Below, one piece after another: positions 16,970 to 55,520 of a DNA stretch of 64,000 bases (its first letter is position 1; each line of letters opens with the position of its first letter). The stretch comes from Clostridia bacterium (GTDB lineage Bacteria > Bacillota > DSM-521 > Neomoorellales > SLTJ01), in assembly GCA_024653205.1 (NCBI GenBank), contig JANLFO010000009.1, forward strand, positions 1 through 64,000. Reading direction: 5' to 3'. Under the pieces are notes generated by a model. That model was not told the DNA's origin, searched no databases, and was given only the letters and a program-made list of their open reading frames with translations. The translations under genes were made by a program, and so were the position numbers.

Positions 16970-16983
16970 CTATCCGCCAGGGC

Positions 16984-17066
16984 CGAAAAGGGCAAACCCT
17001 CCGAAAGGTGGGGACGCAAAGCCACGGGCCTAAGGCCCCTTGGGGTACGGCAGCCGGGTTGCCGGG
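16984..17066 (+). ncRNA. Cyclic-di-GMP-I (GEMM) riboswitch
   Basis: The sequence carries the conserved GEMM-I core in order: AGGGCAAACC, CCGAAAGG, GGGACGCAAAGCCACGGGCC, a TAAGG joining segment, and the closing P3 half GCAGCCGGGTTGCCGG, which provides the tetraloop-receptor layout of the family. It lies about 55 bases upstream of a chemoreceptor gene, a common GEMM target, and is followed by a hairpin that could be its expression platform. Confidence 0.93.
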
Positions 17067-17074
17067 GTAATGAG

Positions 17075-41240: not shown

Positions 41241-41348
41241 TCGGGACGTTGTGTGTATAGACCTGGCGGGTAGAAGCAGTGATACCTGCAGACAGTGCCC
41301 CGCCTTGACCGTACTTACGGCGGGCGGACCGAGGGAGGTATCCTGGAT

Positions 41349-43262
41349 ATGCCTCAAGGCGGCTACATGGGGAAGATTCTAATCGTAGACTTGGCCCGGC
41401 GGACCTACGAGGAGGTGGACGGTGCCGAGAGCCTCTACCGGGAATACATCGGCGGCTACGGACTGGGAGCGAGGATTCTGTACGAGGTCATGAGGCCCGG
41501 TGTAGATCCGTTGGGCCCGGAGAATGTCATCGGGTTCGTAACCGGAACCTTTGTGGGTACCAAGGTGCACGGCGGCGGGCGGTTTAACGTGGTGGCCAAA
41601 TCCCCTCTGACCGGCGGATGGGCCGATAGCAGCTGCGGCGGGCGCTTCGGCCCGCGGCTAAGACGCGCGGGATACGACGGCATATTTGTACGCGGCTGTT
41701 CGGACAAGCCGGTGTACCTGTGGGTTTCAGAGGGGAGGGTGGAGTTCCGGGACGCCTCCCACCTGTGGGGAAAAGATGCTCTGGAAACAGAAGACATCGT
41801 CCGGAGTGAATGCGGCCGGGAGGTTGGAGTGATAACTATCGGCCTTGCCGGAGAGAACCGTTGTTGGATTGCCGGCCTTATCCACGATCAGGGCCGGGCG
41901 GCGGCCCGGCAGGGTCTGGGGGCGGTAATGGGCGCCAAGCTCCTGAAGGCGGTGGCCGTGGAAGGATCCAAAGAAGTTCCGGTGGCCGATATGGATGCCT
42001 ACGAAAGGGTTCTCAGGGTTATGTCGGAGGACCTTAAGTCCAGGCCGCACATTGTGGACGCACTCCGACAATTCGGGACGCCGGTTGTGTACGTGACCAA
42101 CGTTGCCATGCAGGACGCCCCCATCCAGAACTGGAAAGGAATAAGCTCGGAGGTATATCCGCTGGAGCGGGCGCAAAGGCTGGGCCCGGAGGTATATCTG
42201 GGGCTGGAGAAACGGAAGTACGCCTGTGCGCAGTGCGGCATAGCCTGCGGGGCGCTAATCGAACTGGATGGACCCACCGGCCCTCTGCGAACGCACCGGC
42301 CGGAATATGAAACCATAGCTGCCTTCGGAAGCATGTGCCTGGTGGACGATGTGGCCACGGTGATAAGGGCTAACCACCTCTGCAACCGCTACGGCCTGGA
42401 CACCATTTCCGCCGGTGCCACCATTGCCTTTGCCATGGAATGCTATGAAAGGGGCCTCATCACGGATAAGGAGACCGACGGTCTCTCGCTGAAGTGGGGC
42501 AACAAGGACGCGATTCTGCCGCTAATTGAAATGATGGCCCGGCGGGAGGGTATCGGCGCGGTCCTGGCAGACGGGGTGCGGCTGGCCAGTCAGCGTATAG
42601 GCGGGGGCAGTGAGGAGTTCGCCATCCACGTAGGGGGACAGGAGCTTGCCTGTCACGACCCCCGGTGCTGGCCGGGGTTTGGGTACGGGTACGCGCTGGA
42701 TCCCACACCCGGACGTCACACTCAGGGAGGGGTGGGATTCATCGAACACGGGTGGACGGACAAGACCCTGGAGAAACATGGTTATAACCTGAGCCATCTC
42801 GCCCAGGAAAGATACAGTTACCACTCCAAGGGTAAGGTCCTGGCGCTCCTTAATCACTGGTTTCAGTTCTTCAATTCGACCGGAATGTGCCTGTTCAACG
42901 TATACGGGTACCAAGAGTATCCCATTCTCGAAGCCTTCAGGGCCGTCACCGGATGGACGACCTTTGACCTGAACGAGGCGCTGACCGCAGGAGCGCGCAT
43001 CAATACCCTGCGCCACTGCTTCAACCTGCGGGAAGGCGTACAGCCCCAGCGATGGACGCTTCCGGAAAGAGTGAGAGGGAACCCACCGCTGGCAGGGGGT
43101 CCCACCGCAGGGGTAACGATCGACCTTGAAGCAGTAAAGGCAGATTACTACCGCGAACTCGACTGGGACGCGGTTACCGGCGAGCCTTCGCCCCGGGAAC
43201 TTCGTCGGCTGAATCTAGCCGAATTGGTGGGCCGCGGGGCAGCGCGACCAAAGGAGTCCTGA
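41349..43262 (+). CDS. Aldehyde ferredoxin oxidoreductase family protein (first copy)
   Basis: 637 residues. N-terminal AOR domain: KILIVDLARRTYEEVD, YIGGYGLGARILYE, then GRFNVVAKSPLTGGWADSSCGGRFGPRLRRAGYDGI, the pterin-binding pattern. The 4Fe-4S ligands are CAQCGIAC plus a later Cys, probably NSTGMC. Members use a tungsten or molybdenum bis-pterin cofactor and ferredoxin, oxidising aldehydes or reducing acids; some are specialised for other substrates. ATG 41349 is chosen for its N-terminal match and the GAGGGAGG upstream. A MoaD-like protein gene follows, which fits pterin cofactor supply. Confidence 0.88.
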   Translation: MPQGGYMGKILIVDLARRTYEEVDGAESLYREYIGGYGLGARILYEVMRPGVDPLGPENVIGFVTGTFVGTKVHGGGRFNVVAKSPLTGGWADSSCGGRFGPRLRRAGYDGIFVRGCSDKPVYLWVSEGRVEFRDASHLWGKDALETEDIVRSECGREVGVITIGLAGENRCWIAGLIHDQGRAAARQGLGAVMGAKLLKAVAVEGSKEVPVADMDAYERVLRVMSEDLKSRPHIVDALRQFGTPVVYVTNVAMQDAPIQNWKGISSEVYPLERAQRLGPEVYLGLEKRKYACAQCGIACGALIELDGPTGPLRTHRPEYETIAAFGSMCLVDDVATVIRANHLCNRYGLDTISAGATIAFAMECYERGLITDKETDGLSLKWGNKDAILPLIEMMARREGIGAVLADGVRLASQRIGGGSEEFAIHVGGQELACHDPRCWPGFGYGYALDPTPGRHTQGGVGFIEHGWTDKTLEKHGYNLSHLAQERYSYHSKGKVLALLNHWFQFFNSTGMCLFNVYGYQEYPILEAFRAVTGWTTFDLNEALTAGARINTLRHCFNLREGVQPQRWTLPERVRGNPPLAGGPTAGVTIDLEAVKADYYRELDWDAVTGEPSPRELRRLNLAELVGRGAARPKES

Positions 43263-44211: not shown

Positions 44212-46158
44212 ATGAGGTACGCCGAGGCCGGATGTAACCTGGAAATCGATCTTTCCCGGGGCACGGTGACGAAAGTTGAAACCGATCCGAGACTGACCGA
44301 ACTCTACCTCGGAGGTTTGGGTACCAACGCCAAACTGTTGTGGGATCGGGTTCCCCCCGAAGTGGACCCCTTTTCCCCCGATAACCTGCTCATATTCAGT
44401 GCCGGCCTGTTGGGCGGCACCCCCGCGCCGGGTGCCAACCGCACCATTGTGTCGTCTTATTCCCCTCAGACCCTTCTGATGGGCTTTTCCATGATGGGAG
44501 GGTTCTGGGCGCCGGAACTGAAGCTGGCGGGCTACGATAAGGTGGTTCTCAAGGGCAGGTCGCCGGAGCCGGTGTACATCTGGATACACGACGATCAGGT
44601 GGAGATACGCGACGCCCGGCACCTGCGGGGGAAAGGCGCCTACGAAACCACCCGGCTCATCCGCGAAGAGCTTAACGAGCCCCGGGCCCAGGTGCTGGCC
44701 ATTGGCCTGGCGGGGGAGAACCGGGTGTATTACGCCTCCATCGAGCACATGCGCTCCAGCGCCAGCCGGCTGGGCCTGGGTGCCGTAATGGGGGATAAGA
44801 AAGTAAAGGCCATAGCCGTCCGGGGCAGTAAGGATCTGGCCGTAGCCCGTCCGGCCGAGTTCTCCGAGCTGTGCGAGGAGGTTCTCCGCTATATCGAGTT
44901 TCGCAAGGCCAATCCCATCAAAGGGGTGCCCCCCATCCTGGCCGGTCTGGGTTCGCCGCAGGAAATGGCCCTGCACGACGAGCAATGGCACGTGGACAGC
45001 TTTGCCTGGGGACACGCCCGCCACCGCCGGAAGGGCTTTTGGACCGAAGAGATCGCCAGGCAGTGGAGCGAAACCCAGTCGAAGGCCATAGAGCGCCTCA
45101 TAAGCTGCTACAACTGCCCGATGCGGTGCGGGGGGATAATCCGCCACCCGATGATACAGCGGTACATGATGAAGTGCTACTCCAAGCTGACCTACGTCAT
45201 GGCCGCCATGGCCGACGACCTGGCCTTCGGCTTTGAAATCGCCGGCCTGGCGCAGGAATACGGCGTGGACGGGTTCACCACCCCGCAGGTTCTGGCCTTT
45301 GCCGTAGAGCTGTACGAGGCCGGTATTCTGACCGATCAGGATATGCCCGGCTTCCCCAAGGATAACCGGGACAGGTTCTTCTGGCTCCTGGAGAGGATCG
45401 TCAGGCGCGAGGGCATAGGAGACGTTCTGGCCAACGGGGTCTACTGGGCGGCACGCCAGATCGGTCGCGGAGCGGAGGCCTTTGACCACAACACCATCAA
45501 GAAGCACGAGCAGGTCCCCATCAAGCTGGGGGTACTGAATCCCATTTACTACCTCCTGTGGTCTACCGGAGAGAAGGCCAATATCACTCAGATCGAGGGG
45601 CAGGTGCCGCAGGCTCCCTTCCCCACGCGGGAGGAAAGAGAGGAGTTTGTCAGGGACTGGATCCAGGTTCCTCATGAGAGGTTCAAGGAGTTTATTCTCA
45701 ACTGGGAACCCGGTACCTTCCCCTACTACCCCACCGTCGACATGGTCTGCGAACTGGTGGATTGGCAGGAAACCATGCACTACATCGACGACTGCACGGG
45801 CGTATGCGCCGGGCTTTCCTCTTTCCCCATCAAGCCGCCCTACCACATCCACAACTTCCCCCGGATTATCTCTGCCGCCACCGGGCTGGAGCTGGACGAG
45901 GACGGGCTCTGGGAAACCATACGGCGCAACCGCAACCTGGTTAGGGGCGTCAACGTGCGCCGGGGTCTGAGGAGAAAGGACGAGCGTCCGCCCGAGGATC
46001 ACTGGAAGAAGCGATTTCCGGAGTACGAGGCCAAGCTCCTGGACGAGTACTACCGGTTCAAGGGCTGGAATCCGGAGGGCATCCCCACCAGAGAAACCTT
46101 AAGCCGGCTCGGTTTGGACTACGTGGCCGAGGACTTGGAGCGGAGAGGGATCCTGTAA
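44212..46158 (+). CDS. Aldehyde ferredoxin oxidoreductase family protein, BamB-like (second copy)
   Basis: 648 residues. AOR N-domain CNLEIDLSRGTVTKVETDPR, YLGGLGTNAKLLWDRVPPEV and the pterin region SYSPQTLLMGFSMMGGFWAPELKLAGYDKV. The 4Fe-4S ligands are SCYNCPMRC and a later Cys in DDCTGVCAG. Gene order with the following polyferredoxin, HdrA-like and MvhD-like genes resembles class II benzoyl-CoA reductase (BamB, BamC, BamE, BamF), where the AOR-type subunit carries tungsten and reduces an aromatic thioester. A simple aldehyde or acid substrate is equally possible. The ATG follows ACGGAGGTAGGCGAGGAG; the stop overlaps the next start (TAATG). Confidence 0.88.
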   Translation: MRYAEAGCNLEIDLSRGTVTKVETDPRLTELYLGGLGTNAKLLWDRVPPEVDPFSPDNLLIFSAGLLGGTPAPGANRTIVSSYSPQTLLMGFSMMGGFWAPELKLAGYDKVVLKGRSPEPVYIWIHDDQVEIRDARHLRGKGAYETTRLIREELNEPRAQVLAIGLAGENRVYYASIEHMRSSASRLGLGAVMGDKKVKAIAVRGSKDLAVARPAEFSELCEEVLRYIEFRKANPIKGVPPILAGLGSPQEMALHDEQWHVDSFAWGHARHRRKGFWTEEIARQWSETQSKAIERLISCYNCPMRCGGIIRHPMIQRYMMKCYSKLTYVMAAMADDLAFGFEIAGLAQEYGVDGFTTPQVLAFAVELYEAGILTDQDMPGFPKDNRDRFFWLLERIVRREGIGDVLANGVYWAARQIGRGAEAFDHNTIKKHEQVPIKLGVLNPIYYLLWSTGEKANITQIEGQVPQAPFPTREEREEFVRDWIQVPHERFKEFILNWEPGTFPYYPTVDMVCELVDWQETMHYIDDCTGVCAGLSSFPIKPPYHIHNFPRIISAATGLELDEDGLWETIRRNRNLVRGVNVRRGLRRKDERPPEDHWKKRFPEYEAKLLDEYYRFKGWNPEGIPTRETLSRLGLDYVAEDLERRGIL

Positions 46159-46709
46159 TGGCCAAAAGAAAGGTAAGGGTGATCAAGGTCAACCTGGACG
46201 AATGTAACGGCTGCCGGGCCTGCGAGGTGGTGTGCTCGGCCTTTCACGCCAACCCCAAGTTCAGCACCACCAATCCCGGCCGCTCCCGCATTAGGGTGCA
46301 TTTCGACCCCTTCCGGAACGTCTTCGTGCCGGTTTTGGCCAGCGCTTACACCGCCTTTGAGTGCCCGGGCCGGAACCGGTATTCGGCCAACGGGACCGAA
46401 TACGACGAGTGCGCCTTCTGCGGCGTATCCTGCCCGTCCAGGGACCTCTTCAAGGAGCCGGACTCGGGACTGCCCTTGAAGTGCGACATGTGCGAGCAGG
46501 ACCCTCCCCTGGAGGAGCCCATGTGCGTGAAGTGGTGCCTGGTTCACGCCCTGACCTATGAGGAAAGGGAGGAGGAAGTAGAAGAGGCCGCCTTGGATGA
46601 ACTGGAAACGGGAATGGAATCCCTGGTGGACCGGTTTGGGCCGGAGAAGGTAATGGACAGCCTGGCGCGGATACTGAGCGGCAAGGGCTACCTCAAGGTT
46701 GAGGGTTGA
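46158..46709 (+). CDS. Polyferredoxin (4Fe-4S) electron-transfer subunit, BamC-like
   Basis: 183 residues of the DMSO-reductase-B/HycB ferredoxin type. Cysteine motifs in order: CNGCRACEVVC (about 16-26), CAFCGVSCP (about 91-99), CDMCEQ...CVKWCLVHAL (about 111-130). Enough Cys for three or four clusters. It should carry electrons between the AOR subunit and the HdrA-like protein. ATG overlaps the AOR stop (TAATG), so the two are translationally coupled. The C-terminal 50 residues are acidic and helical. Confidence 0.88.
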   Translation: MAKRKVRVIKVNLDECNGCRACEVVCSAFHANPKFSTTNPGRSRIRVHFDPFRNVFVPVLASAYTAFECPGRNRYSANGTEYDECAFCGVSCPSRDLFKEPDSGLPLKCDMCEQDPPLEEPMCVKWCLVHALTYEEREEEVEEAALDELETGMESLVDRFGPEKVMDSLARILSGKGYLKVEG

Positions 46710-46748: not shown

Positions 46749-49700
46749 ATGGAGAAGGAAACGGCGACCCGGCAATTGCTCCGGAGCCTGGTGGAGCGCA
46801 GGCTGGGAGACGTGATGGTGGTCGGCGGGGGCATCAGCGGCGTCCAGGCGGCGCTCGACCTGGCCACCGCAGGTTTCAAGGTCTACCTGGTGGAGAAGGG
46901 GCCGGCCATCGGGGGCAAGATGTCCCAGCTGGACAAGACTTTCCCCACCAACGAGTGCTCGATATGAATCCTGGCACCTAAACTGGTCGAGGTCGACCGG
47001 CAGATCAACATACAGGTCCTGACCAATACCGAGGTGGAGAGGGTAGAAGGGGAGGCCGGGGACTTCAGGGTGGCCCTGGTGAAAAAGCCCCGGTATATCA
47101 TTCTCGACCAGTGCACCGGCTGTACCACCTGCGTGGAATACTGCCCGGTTACGATTCCCGATCCCTTCAACCAGGGGCTTTCCAGAAACAAGGCCATCCA
47201 CCTGCACTACTCCCAGGCCGTTCCCCTCATCGCCTACATTGACGAGAACTGCCTGTACCTCAAGGAGAAGAAATGCGGCATCTGCGCCGGGGTCTGCGAG
47301 AAGAAGGCCATTGATTTTACCCAGAGTCCGGAGAGGATCGAAGTCAGGGTAGGGGCCATAGTGCTGGCCGCGGGATACGACCTGTCCGACGCGGTGGCGG
47401 TCGACGAGTTCGGCTATCAAAGAATGGCCAACGTGGTAACCAGCCTGGATTTCGAACGCCTCACCTGCGCTACCGGGCCGTACGAGGGCGAAATCCGGCG
47501 GCCCTCGGACCGCAGGCACCCAAAAAAGATAGCCTGGATCCAGTGCGTGGGCTCGCGGCAGGTGACCGAGGAAGGCAACAGCTACTGTTCGGCAGTCTGC
47601 TGCACCTACACGCAGAAGCAGGTCATTCTGGCCAAGGAGCACGACCCGGAAGTAGAGGCGGTCATATTCCACAACGACATCCGGTCCTACGGCAAGGACT
47701 TTGAGCGTTTCTACCGGCGGGCGGCCGGCCTTCCCGGGGTGCGGTTCGTGCGCAGCTACGCTTCCATCGGCAGGGAAATCCCGGAGACCAAGAACGTTAC
47801 CGTAAGGTATTCCACCCCGCAAGACGGCGTGCGGGAGGAAGAGTTCGAGCTGGTGGTCCTGTCGCTGGGTCTCAATCCGCCGGTGCAGGCCAGAGAGCTG
47901 GCCGAGAAGTTCGGCATAGAGCTCGAGCCGCACGGGTTCTGCAGGACCAATCCCCTGAACCCGGTGGAAACCACCCGTCCCGGAATCTACGTGAGCGGAG
48001 CCTTCTGCGGCCCGGCGGACATTCCCGAGGCGGTCTTCAGCGCCAGTGCCGCCGGTTCCCGCTGCGGCGAGCTGCTGGGCCGGCGGCGGGGGAAGCTCGC
48101 CCGGGAAAAGCAGTATCCTCCCGAGAAGGACGTCTCGCAGGAGGAACCCAGGATCGGCGTCTTCGTATGCTACTGCGGGGCCAACATCGGGCGGGTGGTG
48201 GACGTCCCCGCGGTAACCGAGTACGCTTCCACCCTGCCCGGCGTGGTCTACGCCCAGCAGCAGTTATTCTCCTGCGCCAGCAACTCCACCAAGGAAATAG
48301 CCGACGCCATAAAGGAGAAGGGGCTCAATCGCGTGGTGGTGGCCGCCTGTACCCCCAGGACGCACGAACCCACCTTCCGCAGCACCCTGCGTGAAGCCGG
48401 CCTCAATCAGTATTACTTCGAAATGGCCAACATCCGGGAGCACTGTTCCTGGGTTCACCCGCGGGAAAAGGAGGCGGCCACGGAGAAGGCTAAGGACCTG
48501 GTTCGCATGGCGGTGGCCCGGGCACGGATGCTGGAGGCCCTCCAGGATCTGGAGCTGCCGGTGACCAAGGTGGCCCTGGTCATCGGCGGCGGCGTGGCCG
48601 GCATGACCGCGGCCCTCTCCATAGCCGACCAGGGCTTTGAGGTTCACCTGGTGGAGAAGCAGGAGGAGCTGGGAGGAACGGCCCGCCGGCTCCACTATAC
48701 GCTGGAGGGGGTAGACGTCCAGGCCTTCCTGCGGGAGCTGACAGGGAAGGTCAAGCGGCACCCGAGGATACGCGTGTATACCGGCGCGGAAATCCTCGAG
48801 GTCACCGGGTACATCGGCAACTTCCTCACCAGGGTCCGGTGCGCCGATGAGGTTGCCGAGATAAATCACGGGGTAGCCGTCATCGCCATCGGGGCGGAAG
48901 AGTATAAGCCCGACGAGTACCTCTACGGAAAGGACGACCGGGTGCTGACCCTCCTGGAGCTGGAGGAACGGATTGCCGGAAAGGACGAGAAGGTAGCCCG
49001 CTGCCAAAGCCTGGTGATGATTCAATGCGTGGGCTGCCGGCAGGAGGACCGGAACTACTGCAGCCGCGTGTGCTGCAGCCACGCGGTTAAGAACGCGTTG
49101 AAACTGAAGGAAATCAACCCGGAGGCGGACGTCTGCGTTCTCTTCCGGGACATGAGAACCTACGGCCTGCGGGAAGATTACTACCGGGCGGCGGCGGACA
49201 AGGAAGTGAAGTTTATTCGCTACGATGCCGAGAACAAACCCGAGGTGGAACCGGCAGAAGCGGAAGAGGACGGCCGGGAAATACTGAGGGTTACCGTGAC
49301 CGACGCGGTCCTGGGCCGGAGGGTGGCCATCGAGGCCGACCTGGTGGCGCTGGCGGCGGCCGTGGTGCCGGCGGCCGACACGGGAAGGGTGGCGCAACTG
49401 TTCCAGCTCCCCTTGAACGAGGACGGGTTCTTCAAGGAAATCCACGTCAAGCTGAGGCCGGTGGAGTTCAGTACCGACGGGGTCTTCCTCTGCGGGTCGG
49501 CCCACTACCCCAAGCACCTGCCGGAGGTCATCGGCCAGGCCTACGGCGCCGCCGGCCGGGCGGTGAACATCCTCGCCCGGGACTTCGTCACCACTTCCGG
49601 TGCCGTGGCCGAGGTAACGGAGAAAAGGTGCATGGGCTGCGGCGCCTGCGCGGCGGCCTGTACCTACGGAGCCATAGAACTCTACGAGGCGCGGGGGGGC

Positions 49701-49871
49701 AGGAGGGCCAGGGTCAATCCCTTCCTCTGCAAGGGGGACGGCCTGTGTAACGCCAAGTGTCCCACCGGAGCCATCGCGCTCAAGCACTACACCGACCGGG
49801 CACTGGCAAGCCTGGTGGACGCCTTCGGCGCCGAGCCGGAACCTGCGGCCTCAAAGGCGGCCGCAGGCTAG
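46749..49871 (+). CDS. hdrA: HdrA-like flavin/iron-sulfur protein, predicted selenoprotein (in-frame TGA at 46965)
   Basis: 1,040 residues if TGA (codon 73) is read as selenocysteine. Both sides are in the same frame and together restore the HdrA motif TFPTNECSI-U-ILAPKLVEVD, where ordinary HdrA has Cys. Layout: an FAD fold with VVGGGISGVQAALDLATAG (about 20-75); ferredoxin insert CTGCTTCVEYCP and CGICAGVCEKKAI (about 120-190); HdrA body; a second HdrA unit starting IGVFVCYCGANIGR (about 465) with VIGGGVAGMTAALSIADQG (about 608) and VGCRQEDRNYCSRVCCSHAV; C-terminal ferredoxin CMGCGACAAACTYGAI and CKGDGLCNAKCPTGAI (about 960-1010). It is probably the flavin-based electron-splitting or confurcating centre of the operon. 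ATG after GGAGGGGGTGAGAGAGG. Confidence 0.85.
46965..47000 (+). promoter_or_regulatory. Selenocysteine codon and SECIS-like hairpin in hdrA
   Basis: TGA at 46965-46967, then a hairpin whose core GGTCG (46985-46989) pairs with CGACC (46994-46998) around loop AGGT; two further pairs extend it to 46983/47000. The loop lies 22 bases after the TGA, and the AGGT loop matches the AGGTCT loop known from the E. coli fdhF SECIS element. Confidence 0.75.
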
Positions 49872-49901: not shown

Positions 49902-50705
49902 ATGTCTGCCGGACGAGGGTTCAAACCCAGGCTCCTAGGTTTCGTCTGCCAGTGGTGAGCGTACGCGGCGGCGGACCTGTCTGGAGTTTCCAGACTTCAA
50001 TATTCCACCGAAATGCGCTTGGTCCGGGTAATGTGCTCCGGAAGGGTAGACCTGGGGCTCATTCTCCGTGCCTTTTACAACCGGGCCGACGGGGTCTTCA
50101 TCGGGGGCTGCCGCCTGGGCGAGTGCAAGTACGATACTCACGGCAACTACCACGCCCTGAACACGGTCTCCCTGGCCAAGAGGCTCCTGGAGCACATGGG
50201 TCTGAACCCGGAAAGGCTGAGGATCGCATTCATGTCCTCCAGCGACGGGGCCTTCTTTGCCCAGGTCAGCAACGAATTCATCAACCGGGTGCGGGAGTTG
50301 GGACCCCTGGGCGAGGGGGAGGGGATAGGCCGGGAAGAACTGAACTTGGCGCTCGGGCAACTGATGAAGCTGGTCCCTTATATCAAGCTGGTGAAAAAGG
50401 AAAAGCTGGGCCTTCGTCTGGGCCGCCCGGAGGAATACGAGCGGCTGTATACCCGGGAAGAGATAGAAGAGCTGCTGGGTCAGGTGGCTTCCTACTCCAT
50501 TGACCCGGAGAAGTGCCACGGTTGCATGAGGTGCGCCCGGTTGTGTCCGGCGGAGGCGATTACCGGAGGCAAGAACGAGGTTCACGTAATCGACCCGGAG
50601 AAATGCCTCCGGTGCGGCACGTGCCTGGAGGCCTGCCCGCCCCGCTTCGGTGCGGTGGTGAGAAAGTCGGAACCCTACCCTCTTCTTGCCCGGGCCGGCG
50701 CGTAG
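49902..50705 (+). CDS. MvhD-like iron-sulfur protein fused to ferredoxin, predicted selenoprotein (in-frame TGA at 49956)
   Basis: 267 residues if TGA (codon 19) is selenocysteine. The start reads FKPRLLGFVCQW-U-AYAAADLSG and continues in the same frame to MRLVRVMCSGRVDLGLILRA and GVFIGGCRLGECKYDTHGNY, the MvhD pattern; the normal motif is CxxC, here C-Q-W-U. Residues about 1-140 are MvhD, and two 4Fe-4S motifs follow, CHGCMRCARLCPAEAI (about 205) and CLRCGTCLEACP (about 236). In methanogens MvhD connects hydrogenase to HdrA; in Bam complexes BamF is the counterpart. The ATG at 49902 has GAAAGGGGGGAAGC before it; an internal ATG at 50013 would lose the conserved motif. Last gene of the operon. 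Confidence 0.85.
49956..49995 (+). promoter_or_regulatory. Selenocysteine codon and SECIS-like hairpin in the mvhD-like gene
   Basis: TGA at 49956-49958; GTCTGGA (49979-49985) pairs perfectly with TCCAGAC (49989-49995) around a GTT loop, 27 bases after the TGA. Distance and stem length suit a bacterial SECIS element. Confidence 0.7.
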
Positions 50706-50743
50706 CCCTTGCCGGGAGTAGACCGATATCCCGGCAAAGGCTA
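50703..50743 (+). terminator. Strong hairpin at the end of the AOR-Hdr operon
   Basis: TAGCCCTTGCCGGGA (50703-50717) pairs with TCCCGGCAAAGGCTA (50729-50743) with one mismatch, overlapping the stop codon. No T-run, so termination efficiency is uncertain. A second stem GCCACCC/GGGTGGC lies at 50772-50805. Confidence 0.55.
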
Positions 50744-54146: not shown

Positions 54147-55520
54147 ATGTCTGATCTACGGTCCTTCTTAGACGCAGTCAGAAGCCGGTTGCCCGACCAG
54201 TATGCGGAGATAGACAAGGAGGTAGATCCGAAGTACGAAATAGCCGCGATCCAAAAGAAACTGGAGAAGCAAGACCGCTATACCGTGTTATACTTCAGGC
54301 GGGTTAAGGGCTCTGATATGCCTGTGGTGCTTAACGTTTACGGCAATCGCGACCGCCTGGCCTTCGCGTTGGGTACCACTCCGGATAAGGTGGCGGATAT
54401 CTACCGCCAGCGGGAGGACAACCCCATTCCCCCGCAGGGAGTGGGAGAGGCACCGGTTCAAGAGGTGGTGATCACGGGGGACAAGGTGGATCTATACCGG
54501 CTGCCGGTGCTCACCGCCCACGAACCCGACATCGCTCCGTACATCACCACCGGCATCGTCATTGCCAAGGACCCCGATACCGGGGTACACAACGCCAGCT
54601 TTGGACGCCTGATGCTGGTGGATCGAAATACCGTTTATACGCACGTAACCCCGGGCAGGCATCTGCACCAGTACTATGCTAAGGCCGAAAGCCGCAACCA
54701 AGCGCTGCCGGTAACCATCAGCCTGGGCAGTCCGCCGACCTGGGCACTGGGGGCCCTGTCTCTCATTCCCATCGATCAGGACGAGTTGGGCGTTATGGGG
54801 GCTATGGACGGTGAACCTCTGAAAATAGTGGCCGGCAAGACCGTTCCGGTGCCCGCCCTGGCCGAGGCGGAAATCGTCCTGGAAGGCGAACTTCTTCCCC
54901 ACGTTCGCGGTGAAGAGGGGCCGTTTTGCGAGTTTACCGGTTATGCCACCGGACGGCGCCACCGGCACGTAATCAAGATTTCTGCCATTACCATGCGCCG
55001 GGACCCCATTTACCATGCGCTGGTTGCCGGTTCCACGGAGCACCGGATACTGGGCTCCATTGCTAAGGAATCCTACCTGTTCAAGGTCGCCCGGGTGGCG
55101 GCTCCCTCCGTGAGGGCCGTACACGTGCCCGTATCCGGGTGCGGGCGCTTCCACTGCTACGTTTCCCTGGAAAAGAAGGCCAAGGGGCAGCCGCTGAACG
55201 TGGGCATGGCGGTTCTGGGAGCGGACATTTACACCAAGATGGTGGTAGTGGTGGATCACGACATTGACGTGTTCGACGAGCGAGAGGTGCTTTGGGCGGT
55301 GGCCACCCGGGTCCAGGGTAACCGGGATATTACCTTCATTCCCCGCGCCCTGGGGTCGGACCTGGACCCCTCGGCGGATGAGGACGGTGTGGTGTGCAAG
55401 ATGATCGTGGACGCCACCGCCAAGCCCTTTCTGGATCAGTACCACGCTCGGGCCGTGGTGCCCCGGGAGGTGATGGACCGAATCCGGCTGGAGGATTACC
55501 TACCCGGTTTGAGCCGCTAG
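54147..55520 (+). CDS. UbiD-family prenylated-FMN-dependent decarboxylase
   Basis: 457 residues with the UbiD plan: LRSFLDAVRSRLPDQYAEID, then HNASFGRLMLVDRNTVYTHV containing the catalytic-region Arg, and GPFCEFTGYAT with the two Glu of the E-R-E triad, followed by TMRRDPIYHALVAGS. UbiD enzymes reversibly decarboxylate aromatic or alpha,beta-unsaturated acids using a cofactor made by UbiX, which is not in the window. The ATG follows CGGGAGGCGATCCC. It is the first gene of a set with a TAXI-TRAP importer, probably supplying its carboxylate substrate, downstream of a sigma-54-like promoter. Confidence 0.9.
   Translation: MSDLRSFLDAVRSRLPDQYAEIDKEVDPKYEIAAIQKKLEKQDRYTVLYFRRVKGSDMPVVLNVYGNRDRLAFALGTTPDKVADIYRQREDNPIPPQGVGEAPVQEVVITGDKVDLYRLPVLTAHEPDIAPYITTGIVIAKDPDTGVHNASFGRLMLVDRNTVYTHVTPGRHLHQYYAKAESRNQALPVTISLGSPPTWALGALSLIPIDQDELGVMGAMDGEPLKIVAGKTVPVPALAEAEIVLEGELLPHVRGEEGPFCEFTGYATGRRHRHVIKISAITMRRDPIYHALVAGSTEHRILGSIAKESYLFKVARVAAPSVRAVHVPVSGCGRFHCYVSLEKKAKGQPLNVGMAVLGADIYTKMVVVVDHDIDVFDEREVLWAVATRVQGNRDITFIPRALGSDLDPSADEDGVVCKMIVDATAKPFLDQYHARAVVPREVMDRIRLEDYLPGLSR

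Follow-up and report, generated by a model that had tools for sequence, protein, structure and literature searches.

Predicted selenocysteine in a BamF-like MvhD-ferredoxin subunit encoded beside Sec-containing HdrA in a benzoyl-CoA reductase-like operon

The locus

In the present work, we examine a TGA-interrupted mvhD gene and its operon by means of sequence comparison and structure prediction. The window, that is, the whole stretch of Clostridia bacterium DNA that was analysed, is 64 kb long, and its genes of interest are collected in Table 1. By sequence, the order bamB-bamC-bamE/HdrA-bamF/MvhD is benzoyl-CoA reductase-like, in the sense of Bam-like only.

Table 1. Genes and features of the operon, in window coordinates
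Feature	Position	Strand	Remarks
bamB-like tungsten oxidoreductase gene	44212..46158	+	class II benzoyl-CoA reductase type catalytic subunit; 1021 bits to 4z3w
bamC-like iron-sulfur protein gene	46158..46706	+	182 aa; kept with neighbour genes in related operons
hdrA (bamE-like)	46749..49871	+	1040 aa; two flavin domains; one TGA as predicted Sec73 (CSIU)
TGA of hdrA, predicted to be read as Sec	46965..46967	+	residue 73
SECIS-like hairpin of hdrA, CTGGTCG-AGGT-CGACCGG	46983..47000	+	7-bp stem
bamF-like gene (MvhD/FlpD + ferredoxin), mvhD	49902..50705	+	267 aa with TGA read as Sec
TGA of mvhD, codon 19, predicted to be read as Sec	49956..49958	+	second CxWC position
SECIS-like hairpin of mvhD, GTCTGGA-GTT-TCCAGAC	49979..49995	+	7-bp stem
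C-terminal 2[4Fe-4S] ferredoxin domain of MvhD	about residues 197-247 (window 50484-50702)	+	

The mvhD reading frame starts with an ATG, which has a purine-rich ribosome-binding stretch upstream, and contains a single in-frame TGA before the stop codon. The translation is MSAGRGFKPRLLGFVCQW-U-AYAAADLSGV..., with GFVCQW-U-AYAAAD as the residues around the TGA. The Pfam family FlpD (PF02662) matches residues 12-134 of the product with an E-value of 4.8e-44 and a score of 149.7 bits, above the curated cut-off of 22.3. As this match runs across the TGA, the two sides of the codon constitute a single domain. Against the VhuD family (NCBIfam NF045873) the product reaches 127.3 bits, which is below the cut-off of 215 bits, and it is therefore considered here to be a VhuD homologue and is not classed as VhuD.

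Two 4Fe-4S motifs lie C-terminal to the FlpD domain, and among the nearest solved relatives of this region are ferredoxin domains at the C-terminus of NuoF/HydB-type subunits. An AlphaFold model of MvhD, calculated with 74 relatives as input, has a pLDDT of 93, with values of 97-98 near the TGA. It is very similar to ElpC (8rvu_F, TM 0.97) and, with a TM of 0.93 by target length, to the MvhD subunit in the Hdr-Mvh complex (5odh_D). Directly 3' of the mvhD stop, an inverted repeat (cttgccggga ... tcccggcaaag, 50709-50739) was noticed by eye, which possibly marks the end of the operon.

The BamB homologue aligns over its full length with 4z3w, and it keeps the equivalents of the tungsten ligand Cys322 and of E251, H255, E257 and H260, the roles of which in BamB are described in PMC12096430. 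It is important to point out that bamD and bamGHI are absent from the window operon. Since these components are missing, it is not certain that the operon encodes a working benzoyl-CoA reductase, and an enzyme acting on a substrate other than benzoyl-CoA is possible. The genome does encode the ring hydrolase BamA of the benzoyl-CoA pathway (504.7 bits; cut-off 464.5). It also has a second operon, on contig C16 (locus L051, 1342-12214), with bamBCDEFGHI-type genes and cysteine at both of the sites that are TGA in the window; the HdrA and MvhD proteins of the two operons are 67% and 52% identical, respectively. Just 5' of the bamB-like gene, there is a second gene of the aldehyde ferredoxin oxidoreductase family (41295-43262).

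Decoding of the TGA codon

The codon-19 TGA occupies a conserved cysteine position of the family, for which homologues with cysteine exist. The orthologues of two relatives from the same family, with 65-71% identity, have a TGA at the identical codon. Public genome contigs were then scanned for the CxWU pattern, and among the at least 117 stretches listed, an mvhD gene with TGA at codon 19 was found in at least 109 contigs. According to the record names, mostly those of metagenome-assembled genomes (MAGs), these contigs span several phyla, and the listed records include Deltaproteobacteria, Desulfobacteraceae, Bacillota, Geobacter, Rokubacteria, Planctomycetota, Chloroflexi, a Bathyarchaeota MAG and others.

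The machinery for selenocysteine insertion is encoded in the same genome (2.46 Mb in 51 contigs), which has selA, selB, selD and a tRNA-Sec gene with a UCA anticodon (76.7 bits); the SelA and SelB genes are both on contig C18. The selD gene (C5:66947-67873) has one TGA itself, and its product is probably a Sec-containing selenophosphate synthetase.

We now consider the RNA level. In mvhD, 20 nt separate the TGA from the stem of the hairpin. In raw counts, uncorrected for kinship, the 5-bp core of this stem is complete in 137 of 169 Sec genes vs 1 of 24 Cys genes, and the 7-bp stem of hdrA in 114 of 116 Sec genes vs 4 of 42 Cys genes. Random synonymous recodings of mvhD complete the 5-bp core in about 4% of cases. 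Past the UGA, the mvhD Sec genes mostly use one fixed set of codons for A-G-V-S-R (GCT GGA GTT TCC AGA), with the arginine codon being AGR in 154 of 169 Sec genes vs 3 of 24 Cys genes, and a few sequences have double substitutions that preserve a base pair. In terms of minimum free energy, the 42 nt past the mvhD UGA gave no signal relative to synonymous recoding (mean z +0.5); the specific hairpin, named beforehand by the sequence-only reading, was tested after this whole-segment energy. An Rfam search of the window returned no match to a SECIS family.

These results bear on whether the TGA could be a true stop, with mvhD being a pseudogene, carrying a sequencing error, or encoding a short peptide followed by a downstream restart. 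The default reading of the genetic code is all that speaks for this scenario, and against it stand the identical codon in many genomes, the RNA-level constraint past the TGA, the encoded Sec machinery and the conserved protein motif upstream of the codon: mvhD orthologues retain FxPRILGFVCxW, rather than beginning past the TGA with no such motif. We regard a true stop as extremely improbable, and decoding of codon 19 as selenocysteine is, on the comparative sequence evidence, close to certain. The sequence-only reading had proposed a TGA within the CxxC motif of a frame that continues, a 7-bp stem at SECIS distance, and two neighbouring genes, HdrA and MvhD-ferredoxin, with Sec at family cysteines. 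The FlpD domain across the codon bears out the first point and the hairpin past the TGA the second, while the TGAs in orthologues, the hairpins and the Sec machinery uphold the third.

The fused ferredoxin domain

The presence of the ferredoxin domain in MvhD was compared with the genes downstream, using a Fisher test uncorrected for kinship, in the 27 related operons whose sequence extends far enough past mvhD. In nine of them the domain is present in MvhD and bamG/H is lacking downstream, and in the other 18 MvhD lacks the domain and bamG/H is found downstream. The two are thus mutually exclusive in 27 of 27 operons, with no exception. From this pattern we infer that the fused domain may replace the NAD(H) module (BamGHI).

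The role of position 19

Counting Sec as Cys, C16, C45, C70 and C75 are invariant in 74 aligned MvhD relatives. Position 70 is either Cys or Sec across a set of more than 300 distinct FlpD sequences, while position 19 can be Cys, Sec, Ser, Asp, His or Thr. Relatives from the same order (L027, L029, L031 and others) often carry Sec at position 70, in a GUHPGDC motif, and Cys at position 19. These proteins belong to the same family as the window MvhD and are often encoded beside Sec-HdrA; they differ in having Sec at 70 and not at 19. One small subunit has in this way two alternative Sec positions, and 12 sequences have Sec at both.

The simplest reading of the alignment is that cysteines 16, 45, 70 and 75 are the ligands of the [2Fe-2S] cluster of MvhD. 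As position 19 is not among these four invariant residues, a role for Sec19 as a redox residue next to the cluster is more probable than one as a ligand. Another option considered was that Sec19 does ligate the cluster and tunes its potential. Sec19 is indeed only two residues from the invariant C16, and position 70, also a likely ligand site, tolerates Sec. However, 19 FlpD sequences have Ser, Asp, His or Thr at position 19 with the other four cysteines kept, and we consider the ligand role unlikely.

Relation between the HdrA and MvhD sites

The sequence-only reading had also suggested a Sec-Sec or Sec-Cys redox contact between HdrA and MvhD, and had proposed to compare orthologous operons to see whether the two positions change together. 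The pairs for this comparison were sampled from genomes of the window's phylum and of the phylum of a Desulfobacteraceae MAG, and from the genomes of the CxWU scan. Both sites could be read in 131 BamE/BamF-type pairs, a few of them from CxWU-selected genomes and so biased towards MvhD-Sec. Giving the HdrA state first, 92 pairs are U/U, 23 are C/U, 16 are C/C and none is U/C. Seeming cases of HdrA-Sec with MvhD-Cys (L251, L276) turned out to be contig ends or stretches of N. On a tree built with FastTree, three changes fall at the HdrA site and eight at the MvhD site, mostly uncoupled, and independent pairs on the tree give no significant association between the sites.

Strict co-variation of the two sites is thus not supported, with HdrA-Cys standing beside MvhD-Sec in 23 of the 131 pairs. 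The missing U/C class fits a possible one-way dependence, in which HdrA-Sec needs MvhD-Sec, although the tree has just three changes of the HdrA state.

The HdrA CxxU region may resemble the disulfide next to the flavin in enzymes of the glutathione reductase type. In solved homologous complexes, the [2Fe-2S] cluster of MvhD is directed towards the HdrA flavin, yet is 25 Å or more away from it (PMC12350162, PMC6019823). Could Sec19 of MvhD and Sec73 of HdrA nevertheless work as a functional redox pair, either in direct contact or through a relay? The absence of HdrA-Sec with MvhD-Cys would agree with this, and for the transfer step from cluster to flavin, the mechanism is stated to be unknown (PMC12350162). 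The 23 pairs with Sec in MvhD only, the unequal numbers of changes on the tree without association between independent pairs, and the cluster-flavin gap all argue against it, making such a pair rather improbable. The specific contact suggested from the sequence alone finds no support: the sites do not switch in step, and in the homologues the two cofactors lie 25 Å or more apart. A special case is a chalcogen relay in which C16-x-x-U19 of MvhD and C70-x-x-U73 of HdrA bridge the gap between cluster and flavin. It is a speculative idea to which we give even less credence, but if it were true, the one-way pattern of HdrA-Sec only with MvhD-Sec would mirror the relay.

Proposed explanation

Taken as a whole, it is highly probable that mvhD is a selenoprotein gene, with a hairpin directing the insertion of Sec19, and that its product is the BamF-like subunit of a complex of the BamB-BamC-BamE benzoyl-CoA reductase type. 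In the mechanism that we propose, SelB and tRNA-Sec would read the UGA at codon 19, directed by the hairpin that starts 21 nt past the codon. The product would be a BamF-like (MvhD-type) [2Fe-2S] subunit carrying its own 2[4Fe-4S] ferredoxin domain. By analogy with homologues in Hdr-Mvh complexes, it may exchange electrons with the flavin of HdrA (BamE). With the [2Fe-2S] cluster presumably held by the four invariant cysteines, Sec19 would be a fifth chalcogen beside it, speeding or tuning electron transfer in the place of Cys. The ferredoxin domain fused to MvhD could serve as the entry or exit for electrons in lieu of the BamGHI module.

Comparison with known systems

That MvhD and HdrA can contain Sec, at CxxU sites and as products of adjacent genes, is established. 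Sec has been reported in VhuD of Methanococcus and HdrA of Methanocaldococcus (PMC2933860) and in both MvhD and HdrA of Desulfobacterium autotrophicum (PMC2702500), while HdrA, MvhD and BamE of Desulfococcus multivorans are reported as selenoproteins with SECIS elements (PMC5109826). A review describes the CxxU motif, up to two Sec residues and the frhA-frhD-hdrA operon (PMC13188914), and in Asgard archaea, hdrA lies beside frhD (PMC11227280). Methanogens, sulfate reducers and Asgard archaea have MvhD/VhuD (FrhD) selenoproteins that belong to the same FlpD family as the window gene and share with it the CxxU motif and the adjoining Sec-HdrA (PMC2933860, PMC11227280, PMC2702500, PMC13188914). 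Unlike in those systems, the window gene has no hydrogenase genes with it, lies in a Bam-like operon and encodes a fused ferredoxin domain.

There is also a likeness to BamE and BamF of class II benzoyl-CoA reductase in Geobacter metallireducens and D. multivorans, where the same gene types are found beside BamB and BamC (PMC1924859, PMC5109826, PMC13328260). BamE of D. multivorans is a reported selenoprotein, as is predicted for the HdrA of the window, and the Geobacter contigs in our survey combine HdrA-Cys with MvhD-Sec. In contrast to the class II benzoyl-CoA reductases of these organisms, the window operon is without BamD and BamGHI.

The present analysis confirms a neighbouring pair of selenoproteins in a benzoyl-CoA reductase-like operon. 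It adds the breadth of the position-19 Sec site, the fixed hairpins and the one-way HdrA/MvhD pattern, and also shows how variable position 19 is and how the MvhD ferredoxin domain alternates with BamGHI. The codon concerned is easily annotated as a stop, has its own RNA hairpin and recurs across many phyla. As one genome holds the operon in both a Sec and a Cys form, it offers a natural comparison for what selenium contributes to flavin-based electron bifurcation.

Two further observations concern the surroundings of the operon. A UbiD-family decarboxylase gene (54147-55520) lies nearby, with NMT1-like and DctM-type transporter genes after it, and these genes possibly serve an aromatic acid. 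Finally, the window contains a c-di-GMP-I-GGC riboswitch at 16982-17067 (72.8 bits).
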